Below, in pieces: positions 24,078-38,561 of a DNA stretch of 42,691 bases (position 1 is its first letter; each line of letters opens with the position of its first letter). The position numbers and the translations under genes were made by a program. The DNA is from an uncultured Alphaproteobacteria bacterium. GTDB lineage: Bacteria; Pseudomonadota; Alphaproteobacteria; Rhodobacterales; Rhodobacteraceae. The notes beneath the pieces were generated by a model. It was not told the origin of the DNA, did no database searches, and worked only from the letters and a program-made list of their open reading frames with translations. The DNA lies in assembly GCA_902556405.1 (NCBI GenBank), contig CACDWF010000015.1, forward strand, positions 1 to 42,691, read 5' to 3'.

Positions 24078-24442
24078 TTAATCGGTCTTCGCGTATGTTT
24101 GCGCTGCGGTTGAGTTAAATTCAAACGCTACTACTTCCTCGTCACCTACTACCCAACCATTATGATCGGGTTCAATAACATAAACGTCACCAGGCCCAAA
24201 AACCTTTTCCGTGCCGTCATTATGCTTTGCGGCCATTTGACCAGAAATAACCGTTCCAACATGCTTTGCTTGACAACTTTCTCCTCCAACCATCGGCCTA
24301 ACACATGTTTCCCAACTCCACGCTGGCTAAAGAACGAGCTTTGCAGCAGCTATTACCCTTGATCACAAACAGATACCTTTGCCTTATTAGGCGCTCTCGC
24401 TTCATCTGGATTATCAAATGATTTCTTCATTACCGTAGTCAT
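24078..24442 (-). pseudogene. Broken cupin-domain gene (frameshift plus amber)
   Basis: The minus-strand reading starts at an ATG at 24442 behind AAGGAG and gives M-T-T-V-M-K-K-S-F-D, continuing to D-Q-G, then stops at 24355-24350 (TAA TAG). Shifting frame by one base near 24356-24358 recovers V-I-A-A-A-K-L-V-L, a TAG at 24329-24327, then P-A-W-S-W-E-T-C-V-R-P and the intact cupin barrel (GGESCQAKHVGTVISG, then FGPGDVYVIEP and a C-terminal VVAFEFNSTAAQ). Related cupins read L-Q-P-G-W here, so CAG to TAG plus a one-base loss explain both lesions. The intact protein would be about 121 aa. Confidence 0.8.
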
Positions 24443-24457
24443 ATTTGCTCCTTTTTA

Positions 24458-24474
24458 AGTTCAAATGTAAAACT
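24458..24474. promoter_or_regulatory. Putative operator AGTTC-N7-AAACT (site A)
   Basis: Imperfect inverted repeat 15 nt upstream of the cupin pseudogene start and just outside its Shine-Dalgarno. A TACTAT -10-like hexamer (24481-24476, minus strand) abuts it. The left half and the A-A-A-T-G-T spacer match the perfect site before the gene at 38500; one half-site base differs from GAACT. It probably binds the same regulator as the sites at 34482 and 38518. Confidence 0.5.
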
Positions 24475-24556
24475 AATAGTATTTTTTTCCAAATTAGAGT
24501 ATAAGTATATTCCTTGAAATTAACCAAATAGTTTTTATCTCTCTAGAAGAAAAAGA

Positions 24557-25672
24557 ATGAACAATCCTGCGATAGAAAATTTTAGTAGTGAGATAACACC
24601 AGCATTTCAGTTTGGCCTTCCCTATCTTTTTGCACCATTAATGATGATCTCGTGGATATTCGGGGGGTGGACAATACTTCTTGTGCCAATATTTGGGTAT
24701 GTCGTTATTACATTTTTTGATGCTTTGATAGGAAAGAAGCTAATCAAGCCCAATGAAGGTAGTGGCGTTTCGGAGGACCGTTATAAATATGTTCTTTATG
24801 GCTGGGTTCCCGTACAGTTCTTTTTGATCTTTGGCAGTTTATCTACAATATTTATGTTTGACCATCTTAGCGGCATTGAAGCATTTTTTCTTATGATAGT
24901 TCAAGGCATCATATCAGGTGCAGTGGGAATTGTCTTTGCACATGAGCTTATGCACCAAAAAACAAAGTTTGAGAGATTTTTATCAGATCTATTGATGGGG
25001 ATGGCTCTATATGGTCACTTTAGAACCGAACATGTTCTGGTTCATCATCGGCATGTTGGAACACGTAAAGATGCGGTCACTGCAAGATATGGGGAAAATT
25101 TCTATAGATTTTTTATCCGTGTGGTTCCTGAGTGTTTTTTGTCTTCTTGGAACACAGAAAAGGAGCTATTGCAGAAGAAAAATTTGCCTTTGTGGGATTT
25201 TCAAAATCCTTTTTATATTTATGTCGGTCTCATGCTTTTCTTTTTATTGCTAGCTTTCCTAATCGGAGGGATACTCGGCGCCGTATGTTTTTTCATACAA
25301 GCTTTAGTTGCGGTATTACATTTGGAGGTCGTAAATTACATTGAGCATTACGGTCTTGTGAGGCAGAAGTTAGACAATGGAAAGTTTGAGCCAACTCGAC
25401 CGCATCACAGTTGGAATGCTAACGAGCACGCGAGTAATCTTTTGCTGATTAATCTTCAAAAGCACTCAGATCACCATGCGAGACCAAACAAGAAATATCA
25501 ACATCTCCAATCATATGATGCAGACAACGCCCCTCAGTTACCTTTTGGCTATCCTTTGATGGTGCTTTTAAGTTTAATTCCACAATTTTGGATGAAAGTT
25601 ATGAATCCAAAAGTCTTGGAGTGGAGAAAACGTTTTTATCCAGAATTACAAGAGTGGTCGGAGGGCCCATAA
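24557..25672 (+). CDS. alkB: Alkane 1-monooxygenase AlkB
   Basis: Membrane di-iron hydroxylase that oxidises medium-chain alkanes (or a related substrate) to primary alcohols. All four AlkB signatures are present in 371 residues: HELMHQ (129-134), EHVLVHHRHVG (158-168), NYIEHYG (260-266) and LQKHSDHH (300-307). About six membrane segments flank the histidine boxes. No rubredoxin domain is fused and no rubredoxin or rubredoxin reductase gene lies in the window, so the electron donors must be encoded elsewhere. It abuts the GYD-protein gene tail to tail with no gap. Confidence 0.93.
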   Translation: MNNPAIENFSSEITPAFQFGLPYLFAPLMMISWIFGGWTILLVPIFGYVVITFFDALIGKKLIKPNEGSGVSEDRYKYVLYGWVPVQFFLIFGSLSTIFMFDHLSGIEAFFLMIVQGIISGAVGIVFAHELMHQKTKFERFLSDLLMGMALYGHFRTEHVLVHHRHVGTRKDAVTARYGENFYRFFIRVVPECFLSSWNTEKELLQKKNLPLWDFQNPFYIYVGLMLFFLLLAFLIGGILGAVCFFIQALVAVLHLEVVNYIEHYGLVRQKLDNGKFEPTRPHHSWNANEHASNLLLINLQKHSDHHARPNKKYQHLQSYDADNAPQLPFGYPLMVLLSLIPQFWMKVMNPKVLEWRKRFYPELQEWSEGP

Positions 25673-25996
25673 TCAGGTTCCTGGAGGAGTGTAGGAACTA
25701 GCAACATTTTTCGCCATCTTGAGAGCTCTATCTATATCGATCTCACTGAGCGTTACGAGATCCTTGATGGCTCCGCTAGCATTAACGGCAATGGCCGCGC
25801 CCAAAGCAACATCTTCGGATGGAACTTCGAAGGTTACTACGATATCGTATTGACCTCTAGTAAACATCATATCTGTAAGTGTTGCGCCTGCGCTACTAAC
25901 AACGGCTTCCATTACTTTTCTTCTTTCAGAATAACTGCTTCCAATCATACCCTTCCATGCTGACTCATTATATTTTGCTAAGGCTATTACTTTCAT
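25673..25996 (-). CDS. GYD domain protein
   Basis: Small soluble protein (107 aa) of the GYD family, with a ferredoxin-like dimeric barrel. The family name motif appears as G-Q-Y-D in R-G-Q-Y-D-I-V-V-T-F. Also typical are KVIALAKY at the start and GAAIAVNASGAI in the middle. Function is unknown across the family. The Shine-Dalgarno is weak (GGTGG). It converges on alkB with adjacent stop codons. It is followed 40 nt away by ung reading the same way, but its own promoter position is unclear. Confidence 0.85.
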   Translation of the reverse strand: MKVIALAKYNESAWKGMIGSSYSERRKVMEAVVSSAGATLTDMMFTRGQYDIVVTFEVPSEDVALGAAIAVNASGAIKDLVTLSEIDIDRALKMAKNVASSYTPPGT

Positions 25997-26036
25997 TTTT
26001 AATATACCACCTATAGATTAAAATCTTAATCCTTAT

Positions 26037-26711
26037 TCACAGTTCCCAATTAATGCAGGGAATACCATTTTCATCTAAATATTCGTTTGTTTTTGAAAAT
26101 GGTTTTGAACCAAAAAATCCATTTGCAGCTGAATATGGTGAAGGGTGAGCACTCTTTATAATTAGATTTGCATCCCCGATTAAAAAGGTCCCTTTTTCCT
26201 GGGCTTTTTTTCCCCATAAAATATACACCAAATTTGTTTTCTCTTGATTTAGTAAAGAAAGTACTTTGTCGGTAAAGATTTCCCAACCCTTATTCTGGTG
26301 GGATGCTGGTTTGCTCTTTTCAACGGTCAATACAGTATTTAACAGCAAAACACCTTCTTTCGCCCACTTTTCAAGGCTTCCCGACTTAGGTCGGGCTATG
26401 CCGATATCTGATTTTAACTCTTTAAAGATATTTTCAAGAGATGGGGGCGGCTGAACACCATCTTTTACGGAGAAACTTAGACCATGTGCTTGTCCCCTAC
26501 CATGGTAGGGGTCTTGACCTAAAATTACGACCTTTACCTTCTCAAACGGAGTAAAGTTAAACGCTGAAAAGATTTCTGATCCTATGGGAAAAATTTCCTT
26601 TCCCACCTTTTTTTCCGTCTTCAAGAAATCACTTAATTGTCGCATGTAGGGTTTTTTGAACTCATCAATCAGCCGCTTTCTCCAGCTTTCTTCAATATTG
26701 ATAGTAGACAA
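26037..26711 (-). CDS. ung: Uracil-DNA glycosylase
   Basis: Family 1 UNG that removes uracil from DNA at the start of base-excision repair. The catalytic water-activating D67 lies in GQDPYHG (65-71). The uracil-recognition loop LLLNTVLTV, the Y-I-L-W-G-K-K-A strand, and the minor-groove loop HPSPYSA all follow in the right order. The 224 residues match the family. The start is TTG with AAGGA 5-6 nt upstream; no upstream in-frame ATG is seen. Confidence 0.95.
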   Translation of the reverse strand: MSTINIEESWRKRLIDEFKKPYMRQLSDFLKTEKKVGKEIFPIGSEIFSAFNFTPFEKVKVVILGQDPYHGRGQAHGLSFSVKDGVQPPPSLENIFKELKSDIGIARPKSGSLEKWAKEGVLLLNTVLTVEKSKPASHQNKGWEIFTDKVLSLLNQEKTNLVYILWGKKAQEKGTFLIGDANLIIKSAHPSPYSAANGFFGSKPFSKTNEYLDENGIPCINWEL

Positions 26712-26793
26712 GTTATTTCCTTACTAAAACTGAGATGCAATTCTTTATGTAATAGTTTAGTATAAAAAAAGTGCCCATGGATACCTTATTTTA

Positions 26794-28074
26794 ATGATTG
26801 AAAAAGAGCTTTCCGAAAAAATAAATATTGAAGTTGATAAACTTTTTGATGATCAAATAAGGTTCACTCAAAAGTTAACTAGATTTCCTTCTTTACGTGG
26901 GCAAGAGCATACAGCTCAAGATTTTCTCTTTGATGAATTGACAAAGCGAAATTATGCAGTTGATAGGTGGACGGTGAATGTGGAAGACATTAAAGATCAC
27001 CCAGGATTTTCACCAGTAAAGGTAGATTATTCAAATGCAATAAATATAGTTGGTACCCATAGACCCAAAAAAGAGATAGGCAGATCTCTTATACTTAATG
27101 GCCATATTGATGTGGTTCCAGAGGGACCTTATGAAATGTGGTCACGCAACCCCTTTGATCCAGCAATTGAGGGAGACTGGATGTATGGTAGGGGAGGGGC
27201 AGATATGAAAGCAGGTATTGTCTCTAACATATTTGCATTGGACGCCATAAGAAGCCTAGGTTACCAACCAGCTGCACGTGTTCATATTCAGTCAGTAGTA
27301 GAAGAGGAATGCACAGGAAATGGTGCGCTAGCATGTTTGGTTAGAGGATATAATGCTGAAGCTGCAATTATTCCAGAACCAGTAGATGATAAACTAGTTA
27401 GAGGAAATGTTGGTGTTTTGTGGTTTAAGGTAAGTGTAAAAGGTTTGCCTGTACATGTAAGAGAAGCAGGGTCTGGTCAAAATGCAATTGAAGCATGCTT
27501 TCCCATAATAAAAGCACTAAGAAAACTTGAGGAGACGTGGAATGCAGAAAAGACAAATTATAAATATTATAAAGATACTGAACATCCTATAAATTTTAAT
27601 GTCGGTAAAATAAAGGGAGGTGACTGGGCTTCTTCTGTCCCATCTTGGTGTGAATTTGACTGTCGGATTGCAATTTTTCCTGATTGGGACCCAAAAGAAA
27701 AATCATTAGAAATAGAAAAATGCATTAGAGAAGCTTCACTAAGTGATGCTTTTCTCTCAAATAATCCTCCTCAAATTGAGTGGAATGGATTTTTTGCAAA
27801 AGGCTATGTTTTAGAAGAGGGTACTGAAGCTGAGAGAGTATTAGGCGAGGCACATTTTCTTGCTTACGAAGGAGATATGAAGAGCTTTATTAGCCCTGCA
27901 TACCTGGATGCTAGAGTATTTATGGTATACGGAGATTGCCCCTGTCTGGTATATGGGCCATATTCGGAAAATATTCATGGTTTTGATGAAAGAGTAAGCT
28001 TGAGTTCCGTCAGGAAAATAACAAAGACAATAGCTCTATTCATCGCAGACTGGTGTAAACTGGAAAAGATTTAG
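26794..28074 (+). CDS. M20 family deacylase (ArgE/DapE type)
   Basis: Di-zinc amidohydrolase of the acetylornithine deacetylase/succinyl-diaminopimelate desuccinylase class, 426 residues. Metal ligands sit in L-N-G-H104-I-D106-V-V, G-R-G-G-A-D137-M-K, and the VVEEECTGNG glutamate pair at 170-171. The dimerisation domain (about 205-320) is normal, as is the C-terminal HGFDERV histidine. Without arg or dap neighbours the substrate cannot be fixed; an N-acyl amino acid or carbamoyl compound is possible. It is monocistronic by layout. Confidence 0.88.
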   Translation: MIEKELSEKINIEVDKLFDDQIRFTQKLTRFPSLRGQEHTAQDFLFDELTKRNYAVDRWTVNVEDIKDHPGFSPVKVDYSNAINIVGTHRPKKEIGRSLILNGHIDVVPEGPYEMWSRNPFDPAIEGDWMYGRGGADMKAGIVSNIFALDAIRSLGYQPAARVHIQSVVEEECTGNGALACLVRGYNAEAAIIPEPVDDKLVRGNVGVLWFKVSVKGLPVHVREAGSGQNAIEACFPIIKALRKLEETWNAEKTNYKYYKDTEHPINFNVGKIKGGDWASSVPSWCEFDCRIAIFPDWDPKEKSLEIEKCIREASLSDAFLSNNPPQIEWNGFFAKGYVLEEGTEAERVLGEAHFLAYEGDMKSFISPAYLDARVFMVYGDCPCLVYGPYSENIHGFDERVSLSSVRKITKTIALFIADWCKLEKI

Positions 28075-28102
28075 TTTTAAGAAATCTTTAAAATCTGAAC
28101 TA

Positions 28103-28801
28103 CTAATCTGGCATCATCCCTGTTGGCACAGCTTTACCGTTCATAATCAATTTTGGATCTTCTTTAATTCCAACTAGTTTGGGCCTGCTATTCAGATATT
28201 CGGATACGCCATTAAGATTTTCTATCGCGCTAAAAAAGTTAACAATACTGGGCCAATCATCGAAGGTAGTGGGCTTCAAAACGCGAATCATCGATAATTG
28301 ATGGTATACCCCAAAATCACAGTATGACGGGTTATCTCCAAGAAAAAATGGGCCGCCTTTATACCTCTCTAAATATTTATTGAAATAAAATATCTTTGGC
28401 TCAAAACTAGTTAAAATTGTTTTCTTGAGAGCTTCATATTCCTCTCCGGTCTTAAAGTTTATTGTCGCGTTGAGGGGTTGGAATAGCTCTTGGCTTGACT
28501 CGAATATAGCGTCGGCTATTGCTCGATCTTCCTCATTCGCAGGAAGGGTATTCGCTAATTTAGCTGTAAATCGCATTATTGAGCCACTTTGCCAAATCGT
28601 GGTTTGGTTATCTACGATAAGAACAGGTAGCTGACCAAACCCAATTTCTTTTTTCATTTCCGGCCAAGATTTTTCAAAATATTCCCACGCCATATGATAG
28701 GTGTAGGGAACGTTGCCATAGCATAATTGCATTTGTATAGCTTCTGTAAAAGCGCGCATTTTAAAATACACGAGATCCAGTTTCGGAAAAGATTTCTCCA
28801 T
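28103..28801 (-). CDS. Glutathione S-transferase family protein
   Basis: Soluble GST-fold protein, 232 residues. The N-terminal thioredoxin domain has FGQLPVLIVDN with the cis-proline, followed by a G-S-I-M-R-F glutathione-contact stretch at about 70-77. The all-alpha C-terminal domain includes FFLGDNPSYCDFGVYHQLS, the GST helix-6 motif. The catalytic residue is not obvious. A TTAGGAGACACCCC leader supplies the Shine-Dalgarno. It likely detoxifies electrophiles, which fits the several oxidases and GST-fold genes nearby. Confidence 0.88.
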   Translation of the reverse strand: MEKSFPKLDLVYFKMRAFTEAIQMQLCYGNVPYTYHMAWEYFEKSWPEMKKEIGFGQLPVLIVDNQTTIWQSGSIMRFTAKLANTLPANEEDRAIADAIFESSQELFQPLNATINFKTGEEYEALKKTILTSFEPKIFYFNKYLERYKGGPFFLGDNPSYCDFGVYHQLSMIRVLKPTTFDDWPSIVNFFSAIENLNGVSEYLNSRPKLVGIKEDPKLIMNGKAVPTGMMPD

Positions 28802-28916
28802 GGGGTGTCTCCTAATTCTAAGTGCAGCGCAAACAACAAATGAAGCTGTTGCGTTACTAATGAAGTTAATTTACTCATTAGGAGTATATCATAAATTATT
28901 TAAGGATTAGCCCTTT

Positions 28917-29330
28917 TTGTTAATAACAATTATTTTTTCAGCTATTGAGGCTATTCTTCTTTTTTTAGGGATATTTTCTCCTTTTGCAAGGATACAAGAA
29001 TTCTGGATTTTTAAGGAGGAGTTTTCAATTCATAGTTTAATTATTGCTCTATTTGACCAACAAAATTTCTTGCTTGGTGGAACAATTTTGGTCTTTGGTG
29101 TTTTAATCCCTTTAATGAGGCTATGTACAAATTTTATACCAATCGCTAGACTGAAAAATTTAAATTTACATAAATTGGCTATGGTGGACATATTCTTAAT
29201 AAGCTTTCTTCTCTTCTCTTCTCAACTGTCCTATTTCTTTGAGGTCAGTCTACTGAAGGGGTTTTATTTTTTGTTTGCAGCATTGGTTGTAAGCTACGTA
29301 AATCACTGGACTATGAAGAGTATGAAATAA
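28917..29330 (+). CDS. Single-domain PqiA-like membrane protein
   Basis: Membrane protein (137 aa) resembling one half of paraquat-inducible protein A. It has about four hydrophobic segments (2-22, 48-66, 84-101, 106-124) and PqiA-like stretches F-S-I-H-S-L-I-I-A-L and LHKLAMVDIFLIS. PqiA proteins help lipid transport to the outer membrane with MCE proteins, but no pqiB-like gene is nearby. The start is TTG with AAGGA 10 nt upstream. Its TAA overlaps the next ATG (TAATG), so the next gene is coupled. Confidence 0.75.
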   Translation: MLITIIFSAIEAILLFLGIFSPFARIQEFWIFKEEFSIHSLIIALFDQQNFLLGGTILVFGVLIPLMRLCTNFIPIARLKNLNLHKLAMVDIFLISFLLFSSQLSYFFEVSLLKGFYFLFAALVVSYVNHWTMKSMK

Positions 29331-29734
29331 TGTCAGAAAATGAATTACTTATTGAAAAAGAAAAATTTCTTGGTCGGTTGGTAGAAATAAACTGGTATTT
29401 TATGGCAATAAAAAAAATAACAACCACTGCCAAAAGAAAAAAATTCTTAGCGATTTTGGAGAAACAAATTTCCCAAGAAGCAAATGCCTCAAATGTCATT
29501 TTTGTAGAAGAGCATGGAGATGTGTATGTTTGCATGATATTCAGGGCTAAAAGTATCATTAAAAAAGTTGTGATTGATGTTTTGGACCAAAACCTCAGAA
29601 AACCAATTCAGCCAAATTTGCAAGCAGGAAATGTCTACATTTATGGAGCTTCTGGAACGATTTTTCAACCAAGTGTCAAAAATGGTCATCCAGATATTAT
29701 AGATAGTGAAAAATCCGGTGATTTTGATGCTTAG
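29330..29734 (+). CDS. Unknown protein coupled to the PqiA-like gene
   Basis: I recognise no family in these 134 residues. It has a lysine-rich N-terminal helical region (about 1-55), then a beta-rich stretch, NVIFVEEHGDVYVCMIF, and a G-N-V-Y-I-Y-G-A-S-G-T-I-F segment, with a polar tail. It has no signal peptide or strong membrane helix. The one-base overlap with the upstream stop indicates translational coupling, so it probably works with the PqiA-like membrane protein. Confidence 0.75.
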   Translation: MSENELLIEKEKFLGRLVEINWYFMAIKKITTTAKRKKFLAILEKQISQEANASNVIFVEEHGDVYVCMIFRAKSIIKKVVIDVLDQNLRKPIQPNLQAGNVYIYGASGTIFQPSVKNGHPDIIDSEKSGDFDA

Positions 29735-29769
29735 TATAATAAAAATACTATCTCTTTGAGATATTCACA

Positions 29770-30654
29770 TCAATGGGCGATTTTTAGTGCCTTTTTACCT
29801 AAATGAATTGTTACAGGTAATTCCCCTAAGTATTCTCCATCTCCTGAGACAATTGAGCTCCATGTATCTGAGGTGAGACTTTCTATTTTTAAGCTCCGAA
29901 CGTGAGTATTTGTCACTGCATGATGGAATATATGCTTTCCAGAGAAGACCTTAATTAATAATTCCACAGCTTGAAGTCGACTAAGTTTCTTTGCAAACAA
30001 TAAGTTTAATTTGTCTCTGAACTTTTTTGCATCAGGAGCAATATACATCCCACCGCCAGTATATTCTGAAGCAGCCCCTGCTAATATAAGGTTCCTCATC
30101 TCCATTTTTTGGGACTCGGTGGTAACAGCATACTTATGTGATTTTAAGTTAATGAAGCTTATTAATGCAGCGGAGGCATATAATAGTGGCCCTTTAAGCA
30201 CCGGTATCTGAGAAGCACGAAATGAAGCCTCACTTAATAATCCAACCCCAGCATTCGTTAGAGAAATTCGGCTATTATCTGAAAAGACAAGTTTCAAATA
30301 CCTAACCGACTTAAAATTACGACGCCGGATCGCATCAATTGCTTTTTCCAGTGTGCTGATATCCAGAGATCTAGCAAAGTCATTTCCTCTTCCGAATGGA
30401 AGGATAGCCATGTTACAAGAGCAATCTATTGCTTTATGGGCAATTATATTTATGAAGCCATCACCTCCACAGGCCACGATAAAATATTTCCTCAACATGA
30501 ACTCCTGCGCCTTTTTCCCAGCATCTTCTGCAGACTTTGAAAAATAAATTTTGGGTTTAGAGCTGGGATCTATACTGTCAATCACGCGTTTTTTATTCCT
30601 CTTTGATAGCTTTCCTGATATTGGATTCACTATATAAACAATTTTTTCTTTCAT
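29770..30654 (-). CDS. Diacylglycerol kinase-like lipid kinase
   Basis: DAGK/YegS-type lipid kinase with 294 residues. The ATP-binding GGDG is at 63-66 in V-A-C-G-G-D-G-F-I-N, followed by LPFGRGNDFARSL, the standard second motif. Members phosphorylate diacylglycerol, sphingoid bases or similar lipids at the membrane. The N-terminal VNPISGK is also typical. The Shine-Dalgarno is weak. It is divergent from the DMT transporter gene. Confidence 0.9.
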   Translation of the reverse strand: MKEKIVYIVNPISGKLSKRNKKRVIDSIDPSSKPKIYFSKSAEDAGKKAQEFMLRKYFIVACGGDGFINIIAHKAIDCSCNMAILPFGRGNDFARSLDISTLEKAIDAIRRRNFKSVRYLKLVFSDNSRISLTNAGVGLLSEASFRASQIPVLKGPLLYASAALISFINLKSHKYAVTTESQKMEMRNLILAGAASEYTGGGMYIAPDAKKFRDKLNLLFAKKLSRLQAVELLIKVFSGKHIFHHAVTNTHVRSLKIESLTSDTWSSIVSGDGEYLGELPVTIHLGKKALKIAH

Positions 30655-30780
30655 AATTTTTCAGAGGTATAACTATAACTGTAGAAGTTAGAGTTTAAAC
30701 AGAACGGGCTTAAACAACAAATAATTATACAAACCAAGATTTGTGCTCTACTAGTGTTTAAACCAACCACCAAATTTAAA

Positions 30781-31668
30781 ATGACTAAGTTACTCAACAA
30801 GCGATGGAATGGAATAGCGATTGTATTATTGTCTTCAATCTTTTTTGCGTTCGTTCCGACGTCTGCAAAAGTTGCTTTGGATGGTGGCGTATCTCTAATG
30901 GCTTTGCTAATGTCCAGATGTCTTATCGGTTTAATAATTCTAGGCCCTTTGACATATTGTCTGCGGGAACCCATTTTTGTAGATAGAAAAAAAGTTCCTA
31001 TATTGATACTCGTTAGTATTATTTCAGTTTGTTTAATCGCATCAACTTACCACGCTATTGGTTACATTAGTATCGCTCTTGTCTTAATGATTATTTATCT
31101 GTTTCCCATCGGGGTAGCCCTTATTACAACAATTAAAGGAGAAGAACATTTATCACGAACTCAATGGTTAAGTATCATAGGTGTTCTATTTGGTCTAGTT
31201 ATCCTAATTTTAGATGAACCATCAGAGACAAGTTTATACGGAATCTTTATTAGTGTTATAGGTCTCTTATTATTTATCGCATTTATATACTTCACGGGGA
31301 AGTTAGTGAATGAGATAAGCTCAGTTACGATAAACTTACAGTTGAGTTTTTTCAGTGTGATTTTGTTAATAATATATATCTTATTTGTACCTATGGAACT
31401 TTCGCTTCCTTCCAATAACTATGGTTGGTTAGGTATACTAGGTAATGGAATGTTTTACGTCTTAAGTTATGTTCTCTTTTTTATTGGCTCGAAAGCTATA
31501 GGTATTACAACGGCTTCTGTTTTAGCTTTAACAGAACCCCTTTTTGCTACGATTGTAGCACTTTTTATTCTCAGTCAGTATTTGTCGTTACAGGAATTAT
31601 CTGGTTTTATTGTAACACTTTGTTTTTTGTCTTTATTCTTGATATTTGCTCACAAAAAAGATGGATAA
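30781..31668 (+). CDS. DMT/EamA family transporter
   Basis: Ten-segment drug/metabolite transporter made of two EamA repeats (295 residues from this start). The first repeat covers about residues 8-135 and the second about 145-290, each with alternating hydrophobic helices. S-I-F-F-A-F-V-P-T-S-A-K near the N-terminus is typical. An upstream GTG at 30754 would add nine residues; neither start has a clear Shine-Dalgarno. Substrate unknown; amino acids, nucleosides or small metabolites are typical exports. Confidence 0.88.
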   Translation: MTKLLNKRWNGIAIVLLSSIFFAFVPTSAKVALDGGVSLMALLMSRCLIGLIILGPLTYCLREPIFVDRKKVPILILVSIISVCLIASTYHAIGYISIALVLMIIYLFPIGVALITTIKGEEHLSRTQWLSIIGVLFGLVILILDEPSETSLYGIFISVIGLLLFIAFIYFTGKLVNEISSVTINLQLSFFSVILLIIYILFVPMELSLPSNNYGWLGILGNGMFYVLSYVLFFIGSKAIGITTASVLALTEPLFATIVALFILSQYLSLQELSGFIVTLCFLSLFLIFAHKKDG

Positions 31669-31747
31669 AAAATTATTTTTAAATTTAGTCAAAGAGAATT
31701 AAGTTATACAGTAATGTATTTAAAAAAAACCTTCTTACATTCCTATT

Positions 31748-32392
31748 ATGGAAAATAATTTAAAAAAAACTCTAATGTCTCAAATGCTCGAGCATGTCCC
31801 AGACCTTGGATGGAGCTGGGATGCTTTATATAAAGCCGCAAAAATTGCCAAAAAAACTAAAAATCCCAATAGAGAAGAATTGCAAACTCTTTTTGGCAAT
31901 AAAATCTCAAATATAATAGAAACGTTCAACGATAAATTAGACGAGGATATGTATGCTATATTTAATAACGATAACAAAAAAGATCTTGGGACTACTGATA
32001 CAGTAAAGGCACTTATTTTATCTAGGCTTAAAGCATCTACAAATGACAAGAGTATCATCAAAACTTCTCTTCTTTTTATGGCACAGCCGAGAAATGCGTA
32101 TGATGCATTCAAACAGGTAATGAAAACGTCCAATAAAATTTGGGAAATAGCAGGCGATACCTCGAGCGGAGGAACCTTCTATTCAAAAAGACTTATCTTG
32201 TCAGGAGTATATTCTTCCACTTTAGCTCACTGGCTTGCAAAAGAGACCCGAAGTGTTGGAGAGTCTGAGTATTTTCTGGACCGAAGGCTCGATGATGTCA
32301 AAAAATTTGGTAAAATTTCTAAACAGTCTATTGATGTATTTGAGAAAACTAAACGTGAGCTAGGCTCAATTATTACAAGAAAGTATAGATGA
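31748..32392 (+). CDS. COQ9 family protein
   Basis: COQ9 homologue (214 aa) that supports ubiquinone biosynthesis, probably by presenting lipid intermediates to hydroxylases. Features are an N-terminal helical region with GWSWDALYKAAK, then the COQ9 core: I-W-E-I-A-G-D-T-S, Y-S-K-R-L-I-L-S-G-V-Y-S-S-T, and Y-F-L-D-R-R-L-D-D-V near the C-terminus. COQ9 is common in alphaproteobacteria and mitochondria, which supports the taxonomic guess. No strong Shine-Dalgarno is seen. A GST-like gene follows 43 nt later. Confidence 0.88.
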   Translation: MENNLKKTLMSQMLEHVPDLGWSWDALYKAAKIAKKTKNPNREELQTLFGNKISNIIETFNDKLDEDMYAIFNNDNKKDLGTTDTVKALILSRLKASTNDKSIIKTSLLFMAQPRNAYDAFKQVMKTSNKIWEIAGDTSSGGTFYSKRLILSGVYSSTLAHWLAKETRSVGESEYFLDRRLDDVKKFGKISKQSIDVFEKTKRELGSIITRKYR

Positions 32393-32435
32393 GACCTAGT
32401 TCCTAACTATAAAATTAAAGTCATATAGAAAATAA

Positions 32436-33218
32436 ATGAGCGAAAAAATCAGAATATTCTCTTACTTGCCGAATCCGAGGGTATGGAAGTCTTTAATAAC
32501 GGGTAGGCTTGGTGGAGTAAAAGTAAAGGTCCTGGGAGATAAACCAAAAAATTTAGTTGATTGGTTATGGGACTTCGATGCAGTGAAGTTAAGTAATTTA
32601 GAACCTGATGAAATAAAGCACTTTGAAAGACAGGGGAAAAGGGGGTTTGAGGGAAGTCTCTACAAAACGGATAGCTTTCTTGATAAGCATCCATTTGGCA
32701 CGGTACCCGCTGGGTTCAATAGCGATGGTTCGATAGGAATATTTGAGTCTAATAGTATAATGCGAGCAGTATCTCGAAGTTCTACTATTACCTCACTATA
32801 TGGAGATAGCGATCCTTATTTACAATCACGAATAGACAGTTTTCTTGATGCTAATCTTGTCTTTTCAAGAGAGTTTCAAGTATATGTTTTAGAATTAAAG
32901 TCATTAAATGATCAGTTCTATAACAGAATGAAAGCAGCCTATTCATTCTATTTGAGTGGTATAGAAAATGCTCTATCAACAGGAAAGTTCATCTCCGGAT
33001 CATGTTTGACAATAGCTGATATCTCATTTGTATGTGATGTTGCACAATTTTTAAGAGAAAGAGATCGACAAGCCGTCATAAATGAGCAGGGATACGAGAT
33101 TATATCAAAGAATTTTGAGCACGATTTTCCTAAATCATGCAAACACTTGCTGACCTTATATAATAAAGAAGAGTTTCAAGAATTCATGAAAGGCTATCTT
33201 GATGGGATCTTGAATTGA
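32436..33218 (+). CDS. Glutathione S-transferase-like protein
   Basis: GST-fold protein of 260 residues. The N-terminal R-I-F-S-Y-L-P-N-P-R-V-W-K thioredoxin strand resembles eEF1B-gamma/GST proteins. F-G-T-V-P-A-G-F holds the cis-proline, and F-E-S-N-S-I-M-R-A the glutathione contact. The C-terminal domain has FISGSCLTIADISFVCDVAQF, the helix-6 motif. Activity and substrate cannot be read. It ends 15 nt before the convergent MFS gene, with no terminator between. Confidence 0.82.
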   Translation: MSEKIRIFSYLPNPRVWKSLITGRLGGVKVKVLGDKPKNLVDWLWDFDAVKLSNLEPDEIKHFERQGKRGFEGSLYKTDSFLDKHPFGTVPAGFNSDGSIGIFESNSIMRAVSRSSTITSLYGDSDPYLQSRIDSFLDANLVFSREFQVYVLELKSLNDQFYNRMKAAYSFYLSGIENALSTGKFISGSCLTIADISFVCDVAQFLRERDRQAVINEQGYEIISKNFEHDFPKSCKHLLTLYNKEEFQEFMKGYLDGILN

Positions 33219-33233
33219 CAATTTATATTCGGA

Positions 33234-34460
33234 CTACGTAGCCTCCGAATACACCAGCTTCTCCTTTATGGGTAGATGAATAAGAGCTGCAAAAACTGCG
33301 AGTGCGGCGTCCAATAGCCATACAGTAGTATAGTCTCCAGTAATACTGAAAAAGAAACCTCCAAGATATGCTCCAAGAAAGCCACCGATCTGATGTGAGA
33401 AAAGCGCAAAGCCAAAAAGAGTTGCCATGAATTGTGGTCCAAACATCTTTCCTACAAGTCCAGCCGTTGCAGGAATAACAGAAAAATAAGTTAGCCCTAA
33501 GGCAGCAGAAAACAATATTACAGAAATTAGGTCCTTAGGAGATATAAGGAATAGTAGCACGATTACACATCGCGCAAAATATGTGTAAGCTAGGAAAATT
33601 CGCATGCTTCTTTTTGAAATATACCAACCTGCAAATATACTTCCTACAATATTAAAAAGGCCAATGATGCCTAAGGACCACCCAGAGACGGTAGGTGGTA
33701 AGCCACAAACTTGGATGACCCCAGGCATGTGGGTAGCGATAAAGGCCACATGAAATCCACAAACAAAAAAGCCGGCGACCAAGTAAATATAGCTAGGTGT
33801 CTTAAATGCAATGCTCAGGGTTTCGGACAAGCCTTTTGTCCCTGTACTCTCGTCCTGATTTGATCTATCCCGAGATCTGAGCAGAAATGAAAGAGGCAAC
33901 ACGAATAATAAAATTATTGATAGAAATAAAATACAAGACACCCAGCCAAAATTTACAATTATAAAACCTGCGATTGGGGCCAAAATAAGTTGTCCTACTG
34001 AAGATCCGGCATTTACTAACCCGAAAGCCATACCAACTTTTTCTTGAGGAATAAGTTTGTTTACAGATGCAAGAACTACTGGAAGACCAGCAACCCCAAT
34101 TCCGATAGAGGAAATTATTCCCAATGATATTGCCAGAGTAAACGCTGTTGTTGAATAAGGAATTAATATAGTACCTAGAAGACCGAGTAAAATACCAGCT
34201 GTTAAAGTTTTTCCGGACCCATGTTTGTCTGCAATCATTCCAGCGAAAGGTGATATAGCACCAAGTACTAATTGGCCGAGGGCAAAGGCAAAACTAATTT
34301 GTAAATAGTCTAATGTTTCAGATTGATTAATACCCTCAATTGTAAGTGAAAGAGAGTTTCGGCTCCCAAACATCGCTGCAACGATACATGATGCCGCTAA
34401 AACAATTAGTAAAAATTTTTTGTCTGTTTCTTGCTCTTTCGAGACAGCAGGTGATGACAT
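33234..34460 (-). CDS. MFS transporter
   Basis: Major facilitator (408 aa) with about 12 membrane segments in two halves. The loop 2-3 region reads G-M-I-A-D-K-H-G-S-G-K-T, close to the MFS signature, and a P-L-S-F-L-L-R-S-R central loop near 195 separates the halves. Substrate unknown; monocarboxylates and drugs are common in this branch. AAGGAAG lies upstream of the ATG, and the putative operator AGTTC-N7-GAACT begins 21 nt upstream, so it probably belongs to the same small regulon as the gene at 37880. Confidence 0.9.
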   Translation of the reverse strand: MSSPAVSKEQETDKKFLLIVLAASCIVAAMFGSRNSLSLTIEGINQSETLDYLQISFAFALGQLVLGAISPFAGMIADKHGSGKTLTAGILLGLLGTILIPYSTTAFTLAISLGIISSIGIGVAGLPVVLASVNKLIPQEKVGMAFGLVNAGSSVGQLILAPIAGFIIVNFGWVSCILFLSIILLFVLPLSFLLRSRDRSNQDESTGTKGLSETLSIAFKTPSYIYLVAGFFVCGFHVAFIATHMPGVIQVCGLPPTVSGWSLGIIGLFNIVGSIFAGWYISKRSMRIFLAYTYFARCVIVLLFLISPKDLISVILFSAALGLTYFSVIPATAGLVGKMFGPQFMATLFGFALFSHQIGGFLGAYLGGFFFSITGDYTTVWLLDAALAVFAALIHLPIKEKLVYSEAT

Positions 34461-34481
34461 TATAATATAACTTCCTTATTA

Positions 34482-34498
34482 AGTTCTCAATTAGAACT
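34482..34498. promoter_or_regulatory. Putative operator AGTTC-N7-GAACT (site C)
   Basis: Perfect 5-bp inverted repeat with a 7-bp spacer, T-C-A-A-T-T-A, 21 nt upstream of the MFS transporter start. With a TTTACA -35-like element upstream, the -10 would fall inside the repeat, as for a repressor. The half-sites and spacing equal those of site B at 38518. Confidence 0.6.
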
Positions 34499-34602
34499 AA
34501 AAAAGAGCGTTGTAAAGGGAAATTAATTGCCATTTCAATTTAAGTGATTTTTCTTTAGCACCAATGTGGTAACATGCAAAAGTTATAAAGAACGGAGAAT
34601 CT

Positions 34603-36060
34603 GTGTACCATCAGCTAGACGATGATAGGCCAAAAGATGAGTGTGGTGTCTTCGGGATATATGGGCACGATGATGCCGCAACGATAACCACGCTTGGATT
34701 ACACGCGCTTCAACATCGAGGACAAGAGTCCGCAGGCATTGTTACGTTCGATAAAAATCATTTTCATGCAGAAAGAAGAATTGGTTTAGTAAGTGAGCAT
34801 TTTACGAAACAGAGTGTTATAGATAGACTTTCTGGGAATACGGCTATCGGACATGTTCGTTATTCAACTACTGGTGGAACTGTTTTAAGAAATGTACAGC
34901 CTCTCTTTGCCGACCTTACTGTTGGGGGTTTTGCAATAGCCCATAATGGAAACCTCACAAATGGGCTCACGTTAAGACATGAGTTAAAAAAAGAAGGAGC
35001 TATCTTCCAATCTACTTCGGACACAGAAACGATTCTTCAACTAGTAGCACGGTCAAAAAAAGGTAATACAATTTCCAGATTTATCGATGCACTTTCTCAG
35101 ATTGAAGGCGCCTACGCTTTAGTTGCATTAACAAACAAAAAATTAATCGGCGTACGAGATCCACTTGGGATCAGGCCATTGGTTCTTGGTGAATTAGACG
35201 GAAACTATATTCTGACGTCAGAAACCTGTGCTCTTGATATTATTGGTGCAACGTTTGTCAGAGAGGTGGAAAATGGTGAGATAGTGGTAATAACTGACAA
35301 TACTATTGAAAGTATTAAACCCTTCCCGCAAATCAAACCAAAGCCATGCATTTTTGAGTATATCTATTTCTCAAGGCCTGACAGCATCGTAGGGGGATTA
35401 AGTGTTTACCAATGTCGCAAAGCCTTTGGTAAAGAACTGGCTAAAGAATCTTTTGTGCAGGCTGACATGGTCATTCCCGTTCCAGACAGTGGGGTGCCGG
35501 CTGCAATAGGCTATGCCGAACAGTCAGAGATACCCTTTGAAACTGGAATAATTAGGAACCATTATGTTGGCAGAACATTTATTGAACCCCAGCAGTCTAT
35601 CAGAGCATTCTCAGTCAAGCTAAAGCATAATGCTAACAAGATTTTGGTTGATGGAAAAAAAGTAATTTTAGTCGATGACTCCCTGGTTAGAGGTACGACC
35701 TCTATAAAAATTGTTAGAATGATGCGGGATGCTGGGGCAAAAGAGGTACATATGCGCATCGCTGCACCGCCTATAAAGTATCCTGATTATTATGGAATCG
35801 ATACGCCGGTAAAAGAAAACTTACTAGCTGCTAATCATAGTCTTAATGAAATTAAAGATTTTTTGGATGTTGATAGTATAGCCTATTTGTCGATTGATGG
35901 CCTATACCGTGCAATGGGTCATAAAAATGGAAGAGATCCTTCAAACCCAATTTACACAGATCATTGTTTTACAGGAGATTATCCGACTAACCTTATGGAC
36001 CAGAGTGGGGAAGAAAATATTAGGCAGCTATCACTACTTTTTGAAACTGAAAAAGAATAA
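34603..36060 (+). CDS. purF: Amidophosphoribosyltransferase PurF
   Basis: First enzyme of de novo purine synthesis: glutamine plus PRPP to phosphoribosylamine. The 485-residue protein starts at GTG behind CGGAG. A short propeptide (1-13) is followed by C14-G-V-F-G-I, the nucleophile exposed after processing. The glutaminase domain shows ALQHRGQESAG and GHVRYSTTGG; the PRPP-binding domain has VILVDDSLVRGTTS. Of the four cysteines that hold the [4Fe-4S] of Bacillus-type PurF, only K-P-C and D-H-C-F-T-G are obvious, so a cluster is doubtful. Confidence 0.96.
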   Translation: MYHQLDDDRPKDECGVFGIYGHDDAATITTLGLHALQHRGQESAGIVTFDKNHFHAERRIGLVSEHFTKQSVIDRLSGNTAIGHVRYSTTGGTVLRNVQPLFADLTVGGFAIAHNGNLTNGLTLRHELKKEGAIFQSTSDTETILQLVARSKKGNTISRFIDALSQIEGAYALVALTNKKLIGVRDPLGIRPLVLGELDGNYILTSETCALDIIGATFVREVENGEIVVITDNTIESIKPFPQIKPKPCIFEYIYFSRPDSIVGGLSVYQCRKAFGKELAKESFVQADMVIPVPDSGVPAAIGYAEQSEIPFETGIIRNHYVGRTFIEPQQSIRAFSVKLKHNANKILVDGKKVILVDDSLVRGTTSIKIVRMMRDAGAKEVHMRIAAPPIKYPDYYGIDTPVKENLLAANHSLNEIKDFLDVDSIAYLSIDGLYRAMGHKNGRDPSNPIYTDHCFTGDYPTNLMDQSGEENIRQLSLLFETEKE

Positions 36061-36068
36061 ATCTGTTT

Positions 36069-36707
36069 CTATCTAACAATTGTAAAGGTCACATCATTTT
36101 CTAGACTGTCATCTTTTATAATACGTGTTGGTCCAAACTTTGATACGCAAAAATCTATGATTACAGATGTATTTGCATAATAAATATTTTGTGAAGAAAT
36201 TTTGCTTGTTTTAGATGATTGTAAATTGAAAATCATCGCAGTTTTTGCATAAGCCCAGCATTCAGAAAGGCAACTAAAAAGATACTGTTCCCATAATGCA
36301 ACATCCTTTGTGGTTGCCAGGTTATACGTGCCAGACATAGTTACAAAGGTTTTTTCTGATAACGGTCTGCTACCAATATTAAATCGTATATTTGGCTCCA
36401 AAAACTTTCTAGAACAATGTTCTATAAACTTCGAGTTAATATCAAAGCCCTCATAGTTAAACTCAGTTCTATCTAGGTTCCTGATGAGATAATCAGCGAA
36501 GGAACCGTACCCACAACCAATATCAGCGATTTCAAAGACACTTTGGTTTCGTGATATTTTTTTTATTTCCTTTAGTATTAAGCTGAAACGCCTTTCTTGA
36601 CGCGTATTTGAAGCCCAAAAAACTCCTTTAGCTGTAGGGCCAAACTTTTCGAACCTTTCTGAGTATCGAGAATTTATCTCAGCTTCTAATATTGCCCTAC
36701 TTTTCAT
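36069..36707 (-). CDS. SAM-dependent methyltransferase
   Basis: Class I methyltransferase, 212 residues. Motif I is I-A-D-I-G-C-G-Y-G-S-F near 75-85, then the acidic motif II residue in Y-E-G-F-D-I-N, and FVTMSGTYN near 122 as the post-motif strand. The N-terminal region (1-40) resembles the substrate cap of small-molecule methyltransferases, and the substrate is unknown. No strong Shine-Dalgarno. It converges on purF with 8 nt between stop codons and has no neighbour of related function. Confidence 0.82.
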   Translation of the reverse strand: MKSRAILEAEINSRYSERFEKFGPTAKGVFWASNTRQERRFSLILKEIKKISRNQSVFEIADIGCGYGSFADYLIRNLDRTEFNYEGFDINSKFIEHCSRKFLEPNIRFNIGSRPLSEKTFVTMSGTYNLATTKDVALWEQYLFSCLSECWAYAKTAMIFNLQSSKTSKISSQNIYYANTSVIIDFCVSKFGPTRIIKDDSLENDVTFTIVR

Positions 36708-36803
36708 TTTTTAAAACAATCAAATTACAATTCATTTATTCCTATAGTATATTAAAATTGCCCGAGGAAAATCCTCTGCTTCTAATTTAACATAAAGAAA
36801 AGA

Positions 36804-37820
36804 ATGGAAAAATTAAAGATGGATGCGAGTATGATGAAAGCTATAACCTACAGCGAGTTCGGTATGTCGACCGATGTTTTAAAGTTGAGAGAACTGCCTG
36901 TCCCTAAAGCAGATAAGGGCGAGGTTCTAGTCTCTCTCGAATTCTCTGGATCCAACCCATCAGACGCTAAGTCAAGGGCTGGGAATCGACCCGGAATTAC
37001 AAAACCGCAGTTTGAGGAAATTGTACCAAATTCTGACGGCTCTGGGATTATCACGGCAGTAGGTGAGGGTGTGGATCAAAATCGAATTGGACAAAGAGTG
37101 TGGATATGGAACGGACAATGGCAACGACCAAATGGAACTGCCGCCGAGTATATTACGGTACCAAGCGCTCAGGCTGTTGAAATGCCAGATGATATGTCTT
37201 TTGAAACGGGTGCTTGTTTGGGAATTCCTGGACTAACTGCATCATATTGCACCTTAGGAGACGGGGAACTGAATGGAAAAACAGTATTTGTATCGGGAGG
37301 AGCAGGAGCAGTAGGACATACGTGCATACAGTTGGCCAAATGGTCTGGTGCTAATGTAATCGCATCCGGATCTGAAAATGGATTCGAACACATTCGGGGA
37401 GCGGGTGCAGACCATGTATTTGATTATAGAGATCCCAATTTATCCAAAAAGATTTTAGACATATGTCCGGCAGGAGTTGACCGAGCTATAGAAGTGGAAT
37501 TTGGGGAGAATGTAAATCTCTTGCACAAGATTGTCAGACAAAATGGAGAGATCTCTCTTTACGGAGGTGCAAAAAATATGAACCCAACATTTCCTTTTGG
37601 ACCCTACCTTTTCAAGGCGTTAAAGATTAATATTGCATTGATTTATATTTTGCCTAAGCAAGACAGAGATCTTGCCATACAAGCGCTACATGATGCTCAT
37701 GCAGACGGTGCTCTTAAGATGGCTGTTGGTTGTGTTTTTAACCTGGAGGAATGCGCCTTATCTCATGATGCCACATTAACTCCTGGTAGAAAGGGTAGTG
37801 TTCTTTTAAAATTAAAATGA
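36804..37820 (+). CDS. Quinone oxidoreductase-like MDR enzyme
   Basis: Zinc-independent medium-chain dehydrogenase/reductase of the NADPH:quinone reductase group. The 338 residues have KAITYSEFG at the start, a GroES-like fold, the Rossmann motif V-S-G-G-A-G-A-V-G-H-T near 165-175, then A-S-G-S as NADP-binding strand end. The zinc-site cysteine/histidine set of alcohol dehydrogenases is absent. Three Met codons (36804, 36819, 36831) compete as starts; none has a strong Shine-Dalgarno, and KAITYS suggests a late one. It likely reduces quinones or enones. Confidence 0.88.
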   Translation: MEKLKMDASMMKAITYSEFGMSTDVLKLRELPVPKADKGEVLVSLEFSGSNPSDAKSRAGNRPGITKPQFEEIVPNSDGSGIITAVGEGVDQNRIGQRVWIWNGQWQRPNGTAAEYITVPSAQAVEMPDDMSFETGACLGIPGLTASYCTLGDGELNGKTVFVSGGAGAVGHTCIQLAKWSGANVIASGSENGFEHIRGAGADHVFDYRDPNLSKKILDICPAGVDRAIEVEFGENVNLLHKIVRQNGEISLYGGAKNMNPTFPFGPYLFKALKINIALIYILPKQDRDLAIQALHDAHADGALKMAVGCVFNLEECALSHDATLTPGRKGSVLLKLK

Positions 37821-37845
37821 TATATTCTGTCTTATAGGCAACAGC

Positions 37846-37872
37846 CAGACAGAAAGTCTGCCCGTCTGCGGG
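37846..37872. other. Two adjacent small hairpins between convergent genes
   Basis: CAGAC-AGAAA-GTCTG (37846-37860) and CCCG-TCTG-CGGG (37861-37872) sit back to back in the 59-bp gap between the MDR gene and the unknown gene at 37880. There is no T run, so any terminator role would be weak or factor-assisted. Confidence 0.4.
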
Positions 37873-37879
37873 ATCGCGT

Positions 37880-38500
37880 TTAAATATGCATCAACATTCG
37901 CGAAGATTTAAGCGTTCCTAAATCGTTAGCCTTCTCAACTAGAGCAACAAAATCGGGGTTTTGTGACATTGCGTCTACTGCCGTTCCCCAATGCTCCAAT
38001 GAATTAAATCGATAAACCACGCCCATCATCTCATGGTCTGAGGCCAACATAGGCACACCAACTCCCATCGAAACATCAAGACTTTTCGTAAGCGCATCCA
38101 TTTCAGGCGCAAGTTCAAGAGCTTGCGAAAGATTTTTTCGAGGCATGTGATACATGCGTTGAACAAGAATTGGCCTCGGGGGATTGGTAGGAGCTCCATA
38201 AGCCATCCTAAAAAGGTTTGGACCTCTCAGTTCTCCTGCGGGGCTCGCTGAGCGTTCATCCATGAGTGCAGCCATGTCAGGGTCTCCAGAAAAACTCTGG
38301 AAAGCTGTCGCTCCCTTGGAAAATGACTCATACATACTCATGAGGACTAAATCACCTACACCCTGCCCAACAATTACTCTCCACAAGCGAGTTGTTGCTC
38401 CATGCTTGGCCAGAATTTCACTTCCTCTTTGAAATCTGAGCTCAGCTAATTTTTCTTTGCCTACGTCAGGTGTTACTTCTCTAATAGATACTACATTCAT
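37880..38500 (-). CDS. Unknown protein with two ferredoxin-like halves
   Basis: The 206-residue protein appears to consist of two alpha/beta halves of about 100 residues. Half 1 has VVSIREVTP, LWRVIVGQG and LMSMYESFS; half 2 has PILVQRMYH, GVGVPMLAS and GVVYRFNSL. That suggests a NIPSNAP-like dimeric alpha/beta barrel, which is inference. A start at 38524 is rejected because AAGGAGGGA precedes the ATG at 38500. The putative operator AGTTC-N7-GAACT lies 17 nt upstream of the start. Family and substrate are unknown. Confidence 0.75.
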   Translation of the reverse strand: MNVVSIREVTPDVGKEKLAELRFQRGSEILAKHGATTRLWRVIVGQGVGDLVLMSMYESFSKGATAFQSFSGDPDMAALMDERSASPAGELRGPNLFRMAYGAPTNPPRPILVQRMYHMPRKNLSQALELAPEMDALTKSLDVSMGVGVPMLASDHEMMGVVYRFNSLEHWGTAVDAMSQNPDFVALVEKANDLGTLKSSRMLMHI

Positions 38501-38517
38501 TGGTCCCTCCTTTTTTA

Positions 38518-38534
38518 AGTTCAAATGTTGAACT
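38518..38534. promoter_or_regulatory. Putative operator AGTTC-N7-GAACT (site B)
   Basis: Perfect inverted repeat; with its spacer it is a 7-bp AGTTCAA/TTGAACT repeat around ATG. It starts 17 nt upstream of the gene at 38500. A minus-strand -10 hexamer TATAAT (38540-38535) abuts it, so bound protein would block the promoter. Confidence 0.65.
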
Positions 38535-38561
38535 ATTATAGAAACTATTTTTTAAAAAAAT

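Follow-up and report, generated by a model that had tools for sequence, protein, structure and literature searches.

The inverted repeat AGTTC-N7-GAACT stands before three scattered genes in a stretch of 42,691 nucleotides (nt), hereafter the window, from an uncultured alphaproteobacterium of the family Rhodobacteraceae (contig CACDWF010000015.1 of assembly GCA_902556405.1). The observation of a shared site is confirmed. The sites are probably operators of one HxlR-type (MarR/DUF24) winged-helix repressor. The only HxlR protein of the genus is regarded as the likely regulator because relatives of this protein carry the same site before their own genes.

The two perfect copies and the one-mismatch copy in the window (Table 1) were present as the original prediction had described them. 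All three precede minus-strand genes, with gaps between site and ATG of 21 nt (MFS transporter), 17 nt (NIPSNAP-like protein) and 15 nt (cupin), which agrees with the predicted 15-21 nt, and the -10-like hexamers reported at two of the sites were also recovered (TATAAT abutting the NIPSNAP-like site and TACTAT one base from the cupin site). The protein that had been called an unknown two-domain protein is predicted to form a tandem dimeric alpha+beta barrel of NIPSNAP-like kind (mean predicted local distance difference test score, pLDDT, 94.5); the best structural match of its model is the marine protein 2pgc, and monooxygenase-like barrels were also matched. The cupin gene, described as a pseudogene, is broken in this assembly. 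It is open in relatives; the interruption may be a pseudogene or an assembly error. The Cupin_2 match was sub-threshold for one open relative of 121 amino acids (aa).

Exact matches in the window numbered two against 0.05 expected, in keeping with the predicted figure of well under one, and none of 300 first-order Markov sequences reached two. With up to two mismatches, 22 matches were seen against 21.7 expected, and significance is limited to the strict motif because this count equals expectation. The genome of the window (G000; 2.19 Mb, about 80% complete) has three exact sites against one for the reversed control, and within one mismatch 58 sites against 84 for the control. The original prediction held that the motif should be rarer inside coding regions; this failed for the relaxed motif, since 34 of the 43 one-mismatch genome sites examined (not every listed site being among the 43) sit inside open reading frames (ORFs) and enrichment was absent genome-wide. 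Counts of the relaxed motif were rejected as proof, with no enrichment in window or genome. The relaxed motif is common by chance, and therefore conservation, not frequency, carries the proof that the sites are real.

Conservation upstream of orthologues had been named beforehand as the test, and it was found for the MFS, NIPSNAP-like and cupin genes. Among 16 MFS orthologues, including that of the window, 13 have the site within one mismatch (ten perfect, three with one mismatch) and one has two mismatches; no site is visible in the two most diverged (about 72% identity). For the NIPSNAP family, 23 of 30 loci were kept for scoring and the seven without a match starting at residue 1 (including L024) were dropped. 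The 23, which include the window gene and paralogues, comprise 17 loci within one mismatch, four with two mismatches and two without a site, one of which is the own-genome paralogue L037. The 17 closest sites all have GAACT as their right half, with AGTTC, AGTAC or AGTGC on the left. Relatives of P0001, of the NIPSNAP family, were found in 20 of the 22 genomes of the genus; 59 genomes from elsewhere yielded none. The genus genomes are only partly complete (58-91%), and those identified were assembled from single cells or metagenomes of uncultured Alphaproteobacteria. For the cupin, 11 relatives among the matches read combine an open gene of 121 aa with the AGTTT...GAACT variant seen in the window; in two others (L181, L250) the site has diverged. 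In addition, the directional pattern TAGTNC-N6-TGAACTNA gave 25 matches against 5 for the control in the 22 genus genomes, with one palindromic site counted on both strands; 18 of the 25 rows precede NIPSNAP genes. Conserved sites before the three genes and before the further genes described below support the predicted small regulon of one regulator.

The candidate regulator, P0003, is a protein of 146 aa encoded outside the window (G000:C7:53117-53554), with a match to the HxlR family of 51.9 bits against a cut-off of 20.8. HxlR has one match each in 14 of the 22 incomplete genus genomes. The helix ISRNLLTERLK is unchanged in the 14 aligned genus orthologues, and Cys11 is invariant across 25 aligned sequences. 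The model of the genus protein (mean pLDDT 76, with a poorly predicted tail from residue 116) matched PA1607 best, and YodB, HypR, QsrR and B. subtilis HxlR were also among the matches.

Outside the genus, the motif is associated with HxlR promoters. P0003 was searched against 386 genomes of the class, of which 117 gave E <=1e-10, and 69 better-ranked relatives were read (29 loci and 40 further; six better-ranked matches were left out, two as already included, one as a near-duplicate and three for space, and one lower-ranked, L422, was taken in). AGTTC-N7-GAACT at 9/10 or better was present in 18 of the 69 promoters, taken as the 254 nt before the domain, and in none of 298 control windows drawn from within and downstream of the gene at the same loci. 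At 9/10 the motif ranked first among 420 permuted motif-and-gap combinations, which averaged 0.48, the runner-up having 9; at 8/10 it was found in 35 of 69, a count that a one-base shift of the palindrome also reached. By quartile of FastTree distance to the genus HxlR (no support values were examined), sites were found in 10/37, 9/37, 4/37 and 0/40. The original prediction had listed MarR, TetR and HxlR as candidate families, and HxlR is the best supported of these. The nearest relative, L354 (45% identity), has the perfect site AGTTCAATTTTTGAACT between its HxlR gene and a MATE gene, 16 nt from the latter. This MATE protein shares 53% identity over 447 aa with a genus MATE found in G009, whose gene has GGTTC-N7-GAACC (8/10) 15 nt before a TTG start.

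Altogether, 22 HxlR promoters with the site were looked at, and the divergent genes (Table 1) were family-tested in part, the rest being named by eye or left unnamed. The HxlR-MATE, HxlR-SDR, HxlR-thioesterase and HxlR-DsbA-like pairs of other Alphaproteobacteria have the same operator between the two genes, and the MATE target is shared with the genus. Two further likenesses are parallel in kind at most: identity is 30% between the enoyl-CoA hydratases of L355 and the own genome, and 18% between the DsbA-like proteins of L373 and the window, with no site at the window gene.

Several observations weigh against the assignment to the genus HxlR. None of the 14 genus HxlR loci has a site within one mismatch or a match to the sequence-only model R1, and no HxlR was detected in G009 (76% complete), the source of the MATE case. 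The 69 relatives include near-duplicates, and one gene (L315 = L374) occurs in both HxlR samples. Furthermore, 51 of the 69 promoters fall below 9/10, including that of L358, one of the three nearest relatives. The 298 control windows, like the 331 used for a general HxlR sample, begin within the gene and consist mostly of coding sequence. In that general sample the site at 9/10 or better was found in 5/84 promoters versus 2/331 windows, a weak excess; at 8/10 it was found in 17/84, eighth of 420 permuted combinations (mean 6.6), with CAGTT-N4 and ACTTG-N7 among the higher-ranked controls. By eye, three of the five general-sample cases (L280, L304, L315) resemble the genus recognition helix (ITRH.LA.RL against ISRNLLTERL). 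No -10-like hexamer adjoins the site at 11 cupin, 13 MFS or three nitronate monooxygenase sites (the script kept three of nine loci of the last kind). The survey of regulators took in the TetR, MarR and HxlR families. In other genera of the family two perfect TAGTTC-N7-GAACTA sites were seen, one in L267 next to a gene that is MarR-like by eye, the other in L265 next to an IclR-like gene whose neighbour resembles a Rieske oxygenase (also by eye).

The palindrome lies 15-21 nt upstream of start codons in the window, a position that would suit an RNA hairpin of the 5' leader, immediately upstream of the ribosome-binding site. Such a hairpin is very improbable. Across 24 distinct listed sites the fourth stem pair forms in 13, against 22-24 for the other pairs, and no compensatory change occurs in the constant right half. 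In the NIPSNAP group 16 of 18 loci have a -10-like hexamer next to the site, and with TATAAT abutting, transcription should start inside the site, which would leave the left arm of a hairpin untranscribed. The hairpin was rejected on the comparison of stems, and because the left half-sites vary without compensation, the sites are, as judged from their sequences, DNA operators. As they appear to lie near the transcription start, they are most simply read as repressor sites. Among DNA elements, the alphaproteobacterial LexA (SOS) box shares the GTTC half-site and the 7-nt spacing. That box is a direct repeat, whereas the sites here are inverted, and no SOS gene was seen among the targets. The window has three occurrences of GTTC-N7-GTTC or GAAC-N7-GAAC, none of them at the sites; the LexA box was thus rejected, as the original prediction had it.

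Operators of another conserved regulator of the genus, such as a MarR or LysR-type protein, are an unlikely explanation. GTTC-N7-GAAC fits the T-N11-A shape of LysR sites, MarR sites are palindromes of like size, and the perfect site beside L267 would suit a MarR protein. All six genomes searched have one clear match to MarR_2 (PF12802; L195-L200), together with six weaker matches, one of them just over the cut-off. Against this, R1 has no match at these 12 MarR loci, where up to two mismatches gave scattered matches (one with a single mismatch, L201, lies far past the helix-turn-helix match), and the motif is associated with HxlR promoters, the promoter test having been applied to HxlR relatives. 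TetR regulators are almost absent from the three genus genomes searched (about 2 Mb each), with one TetR_N match in G000 and none in G003 or G008, and no conserved TetR protein of the genus was found in these three. Chance resemblance combined with close kinship of the genomes is hardly credible at all, even though the genome shows no enrichment of the relaxed motif, whose examined matches lie mostly inside ORFs: the half-sites hold their register while the surroundings vary, in paralogues down to about 47% identity, the directional pattern exceeds its control fivefold (25 versus 5), and HxlR promoters of other families carry this motif as well.

The original prediction had proposed looking for an autoregulated regulator gene bearing the same site, and none was found in the genus at 12 MarR and 14 HxlR loci. 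An autoregulatory operator at a regulator's own gene is common, not universal. HxlR gene pairs elsewhere have the site in the regulator's own promoter, whereas in the genus the site is dispersed and absent from the HxlR promoter, which suggests autoregulation through this site only for the HxlR relatives outside the genus. Most of the listed genus orthologues of the HxlR gene (L111-L123; e.g., L122, just before 1447) have a different element after the -10, approximately TGACGTNNCGTAAACT, which may be the operator of another regulator.

The HxlR repressor proposed here would act as follows. It would bind as a dimer to the GTTC/GAAC half-sites, near the point where transcription starts, and would block RNA polymerase, and an electrophile or oxidant reacting with the invariant Cys11 would release it. 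The scattered targets would be genes for NIPSNAP-like and DUF1330 barrels, MFS and MATE transporters, nitronate monooxygenase, enoyl-CoA hydratase, tautomerase, MDR, GST and cupin proteins. An electrophile-released repressor is proposed because Cys11, the fold and the targets resemble the YodB/CatR kind. YodB, CatR, HypR and QsrR are MarR/DUF24 redox repressors of Bacillus and Staphylococcus in the same family as the genus HxlR (YodB 5hs7, E 3.7e-10), and the N-terminal cysteine of the genus protein stands at about the place of YodB Cys6 and CatR Cys7. According to two reports, YodB and CatR are inactivated by quinones or diamide via this cysteine, and repressors of this type control quinone reductases, nitroreductases and dioxygenases, targets of a quinone/electrophile kind like those of the genus regulon (PMC6798810, PMC10458429). 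Their operator sequence appears different from the genus site and, unlike theirs, the genus targets are scattered with no autoregulation through the site. The sole NCBIfam match of the genus HxlR at E <=0.01 is Campylobacter jejuni RrpB (NF047364; E 3.6e-12). The genus protein was rejected as an RrpB because its 46.5 bits fall far below the 175-bit cut-off.

Further genes with the site were collected by running R1 on the 22 genus genomes; 59 matches of a longer list were read (39 + 20), and matches that are coding were left out: those in one long frame taken by eye for parB (L182, L191, L239, L240, L244) and that in L253. A nitronate monooxygenase/FabK-like gene of 325 aa is preceded by the site in nine genomes including the own genome (family tested on L173), and a DUF1330 gene has it on the divergent side in four, again including the own genome (L166-L168, L172; family tested on L172). 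A 118-aa protein to which no family was assigned has the site at L243, L248 and L256, with a fourth case by sequence (L249). In three genomes the site lies about 13-33 nt before the start codon of class III adenylate/guanylate cyclase genes (L001, L179, L241). Other cases are listed in Table 1. A related element, approximately AGTTCATATTTTGAATT, was seen between genes that are GST-like and flagellin-like by eye (L162-L165, L169, L178, L246, L252). It lies inside an extended ORF in L162 and L163 and inside a short ORF in L255, and was not counted as it is uncertain; the same applies to an electron-transfer-flavoprotein-like match, named by eye (L237, L238). Across the family, 11 of 394 genomes had TAGTTC-N7-GAACTA; the reversed control was found in more, and because of this a family-wide dispersed regulon was rejected.

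Table 1. Sites and genes of the window, further genus genes preceded by the site, and genes divergent from HxlR genes whose promoter has the site.
Feature	Position or locus	Strand	Basis or remark
Operator AGTTC-N7-GAACT, NIPSNAP-like gene	38518..38534	.	exact match; wider model match 38510-38541
-10 hexamer TATAAT, abuts 38518 operator	38535..38540	-	sequence
NIPSNAP-like tandem dimeric alpha+beta barrel protein, 206 aa	37880..38500	-	sub-threshold NIPSNAP; structure prediction
Operator AGTTC-N7-GAACT, MFS gene	34482..34498	.	exact match; wider model match 34473-34505
MFS transporter, 408 aa	33234..34460	-	Pfam MFS_1 E 1.9e-39
Operator variant, cupin gene	24458..24474	.	one mismatch, left half AGTTT in gene orientation; wider model match 24449-24478
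-10-like hexamer TACTAT, one base from cupin operator	24476..24481	-	sequence
Cupin gene remnant, interrupted in this assembly	24078..24442	-	three-frame translation; open 121-aa versions in relatives
Nitronate monooxygenase/FabK-like	L170, L171, L173, L174, L176, L177, L180, L183, L190		
Enoyl-CoA hydratase	L015 (own genome)		single case; site upstream
Tautomerase	L095		single case; site upstream
MDR quinone-reductase-like	L089		single case; site upstream
GST	L254		single case; site upstream
MATE	L247		single case; site upstream
162-aa protein, no family named	L105		single case; site upstream
Small proteins, barrel-like by eye	L099, L175, L193		no Pfam family over cut-off; site upstream
MATE, divergent from HxlR	L354, L378		
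Enoyl-CoA hydratase, divergent from HxlR	L355		
Thioesterase, divergent from HxlR	L362, L403		
SDR, divergent from HxlR	L374, L295		
DsbA-like, divergent from HxlR	L373, L389		
Alpha/beta hydrolase, divergent from HxlR	L364		

HxlR repressors are very common, and operators are known for few members, mostly of Firmicutes. The titles and abstract openings of the literature searched (including PMC11633110, PMC6798810 and PMC10458429) mention no alphaproteobacterial HxlR operator; in these parts of the sources the motif is not described and the literal string GTTCN7GAAC is absent. As a tentative and rather doubtful extension, a cysteine-bearing HxlR may have lost its autoregulatory operator and become the dispersed master regulator of the detoxification of electrophiles, quinones and acyl compounds. 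The ancestral local operator AGTTC-N7-GAACT would then stand before about seven genes of the own genome and about a dozen kinds of gene genus-wide, including the adenylate cyclase genes, which might tie it to cyclic-nucleotide signalling. The setting of this extension is a streamlined marine genus from which TetR repressors are almost gone (one match in three genomes searched). If true, these findings would provide a testable operator for a large alphaproteobacterial group of HxlR proteins, and would suggest a common role for NIPSNAP-like, DUF1330 and cupin proteins of unassigned function. They would also show how, in a genome poor in regulators, a local switch has widened into a dispersed regulon.

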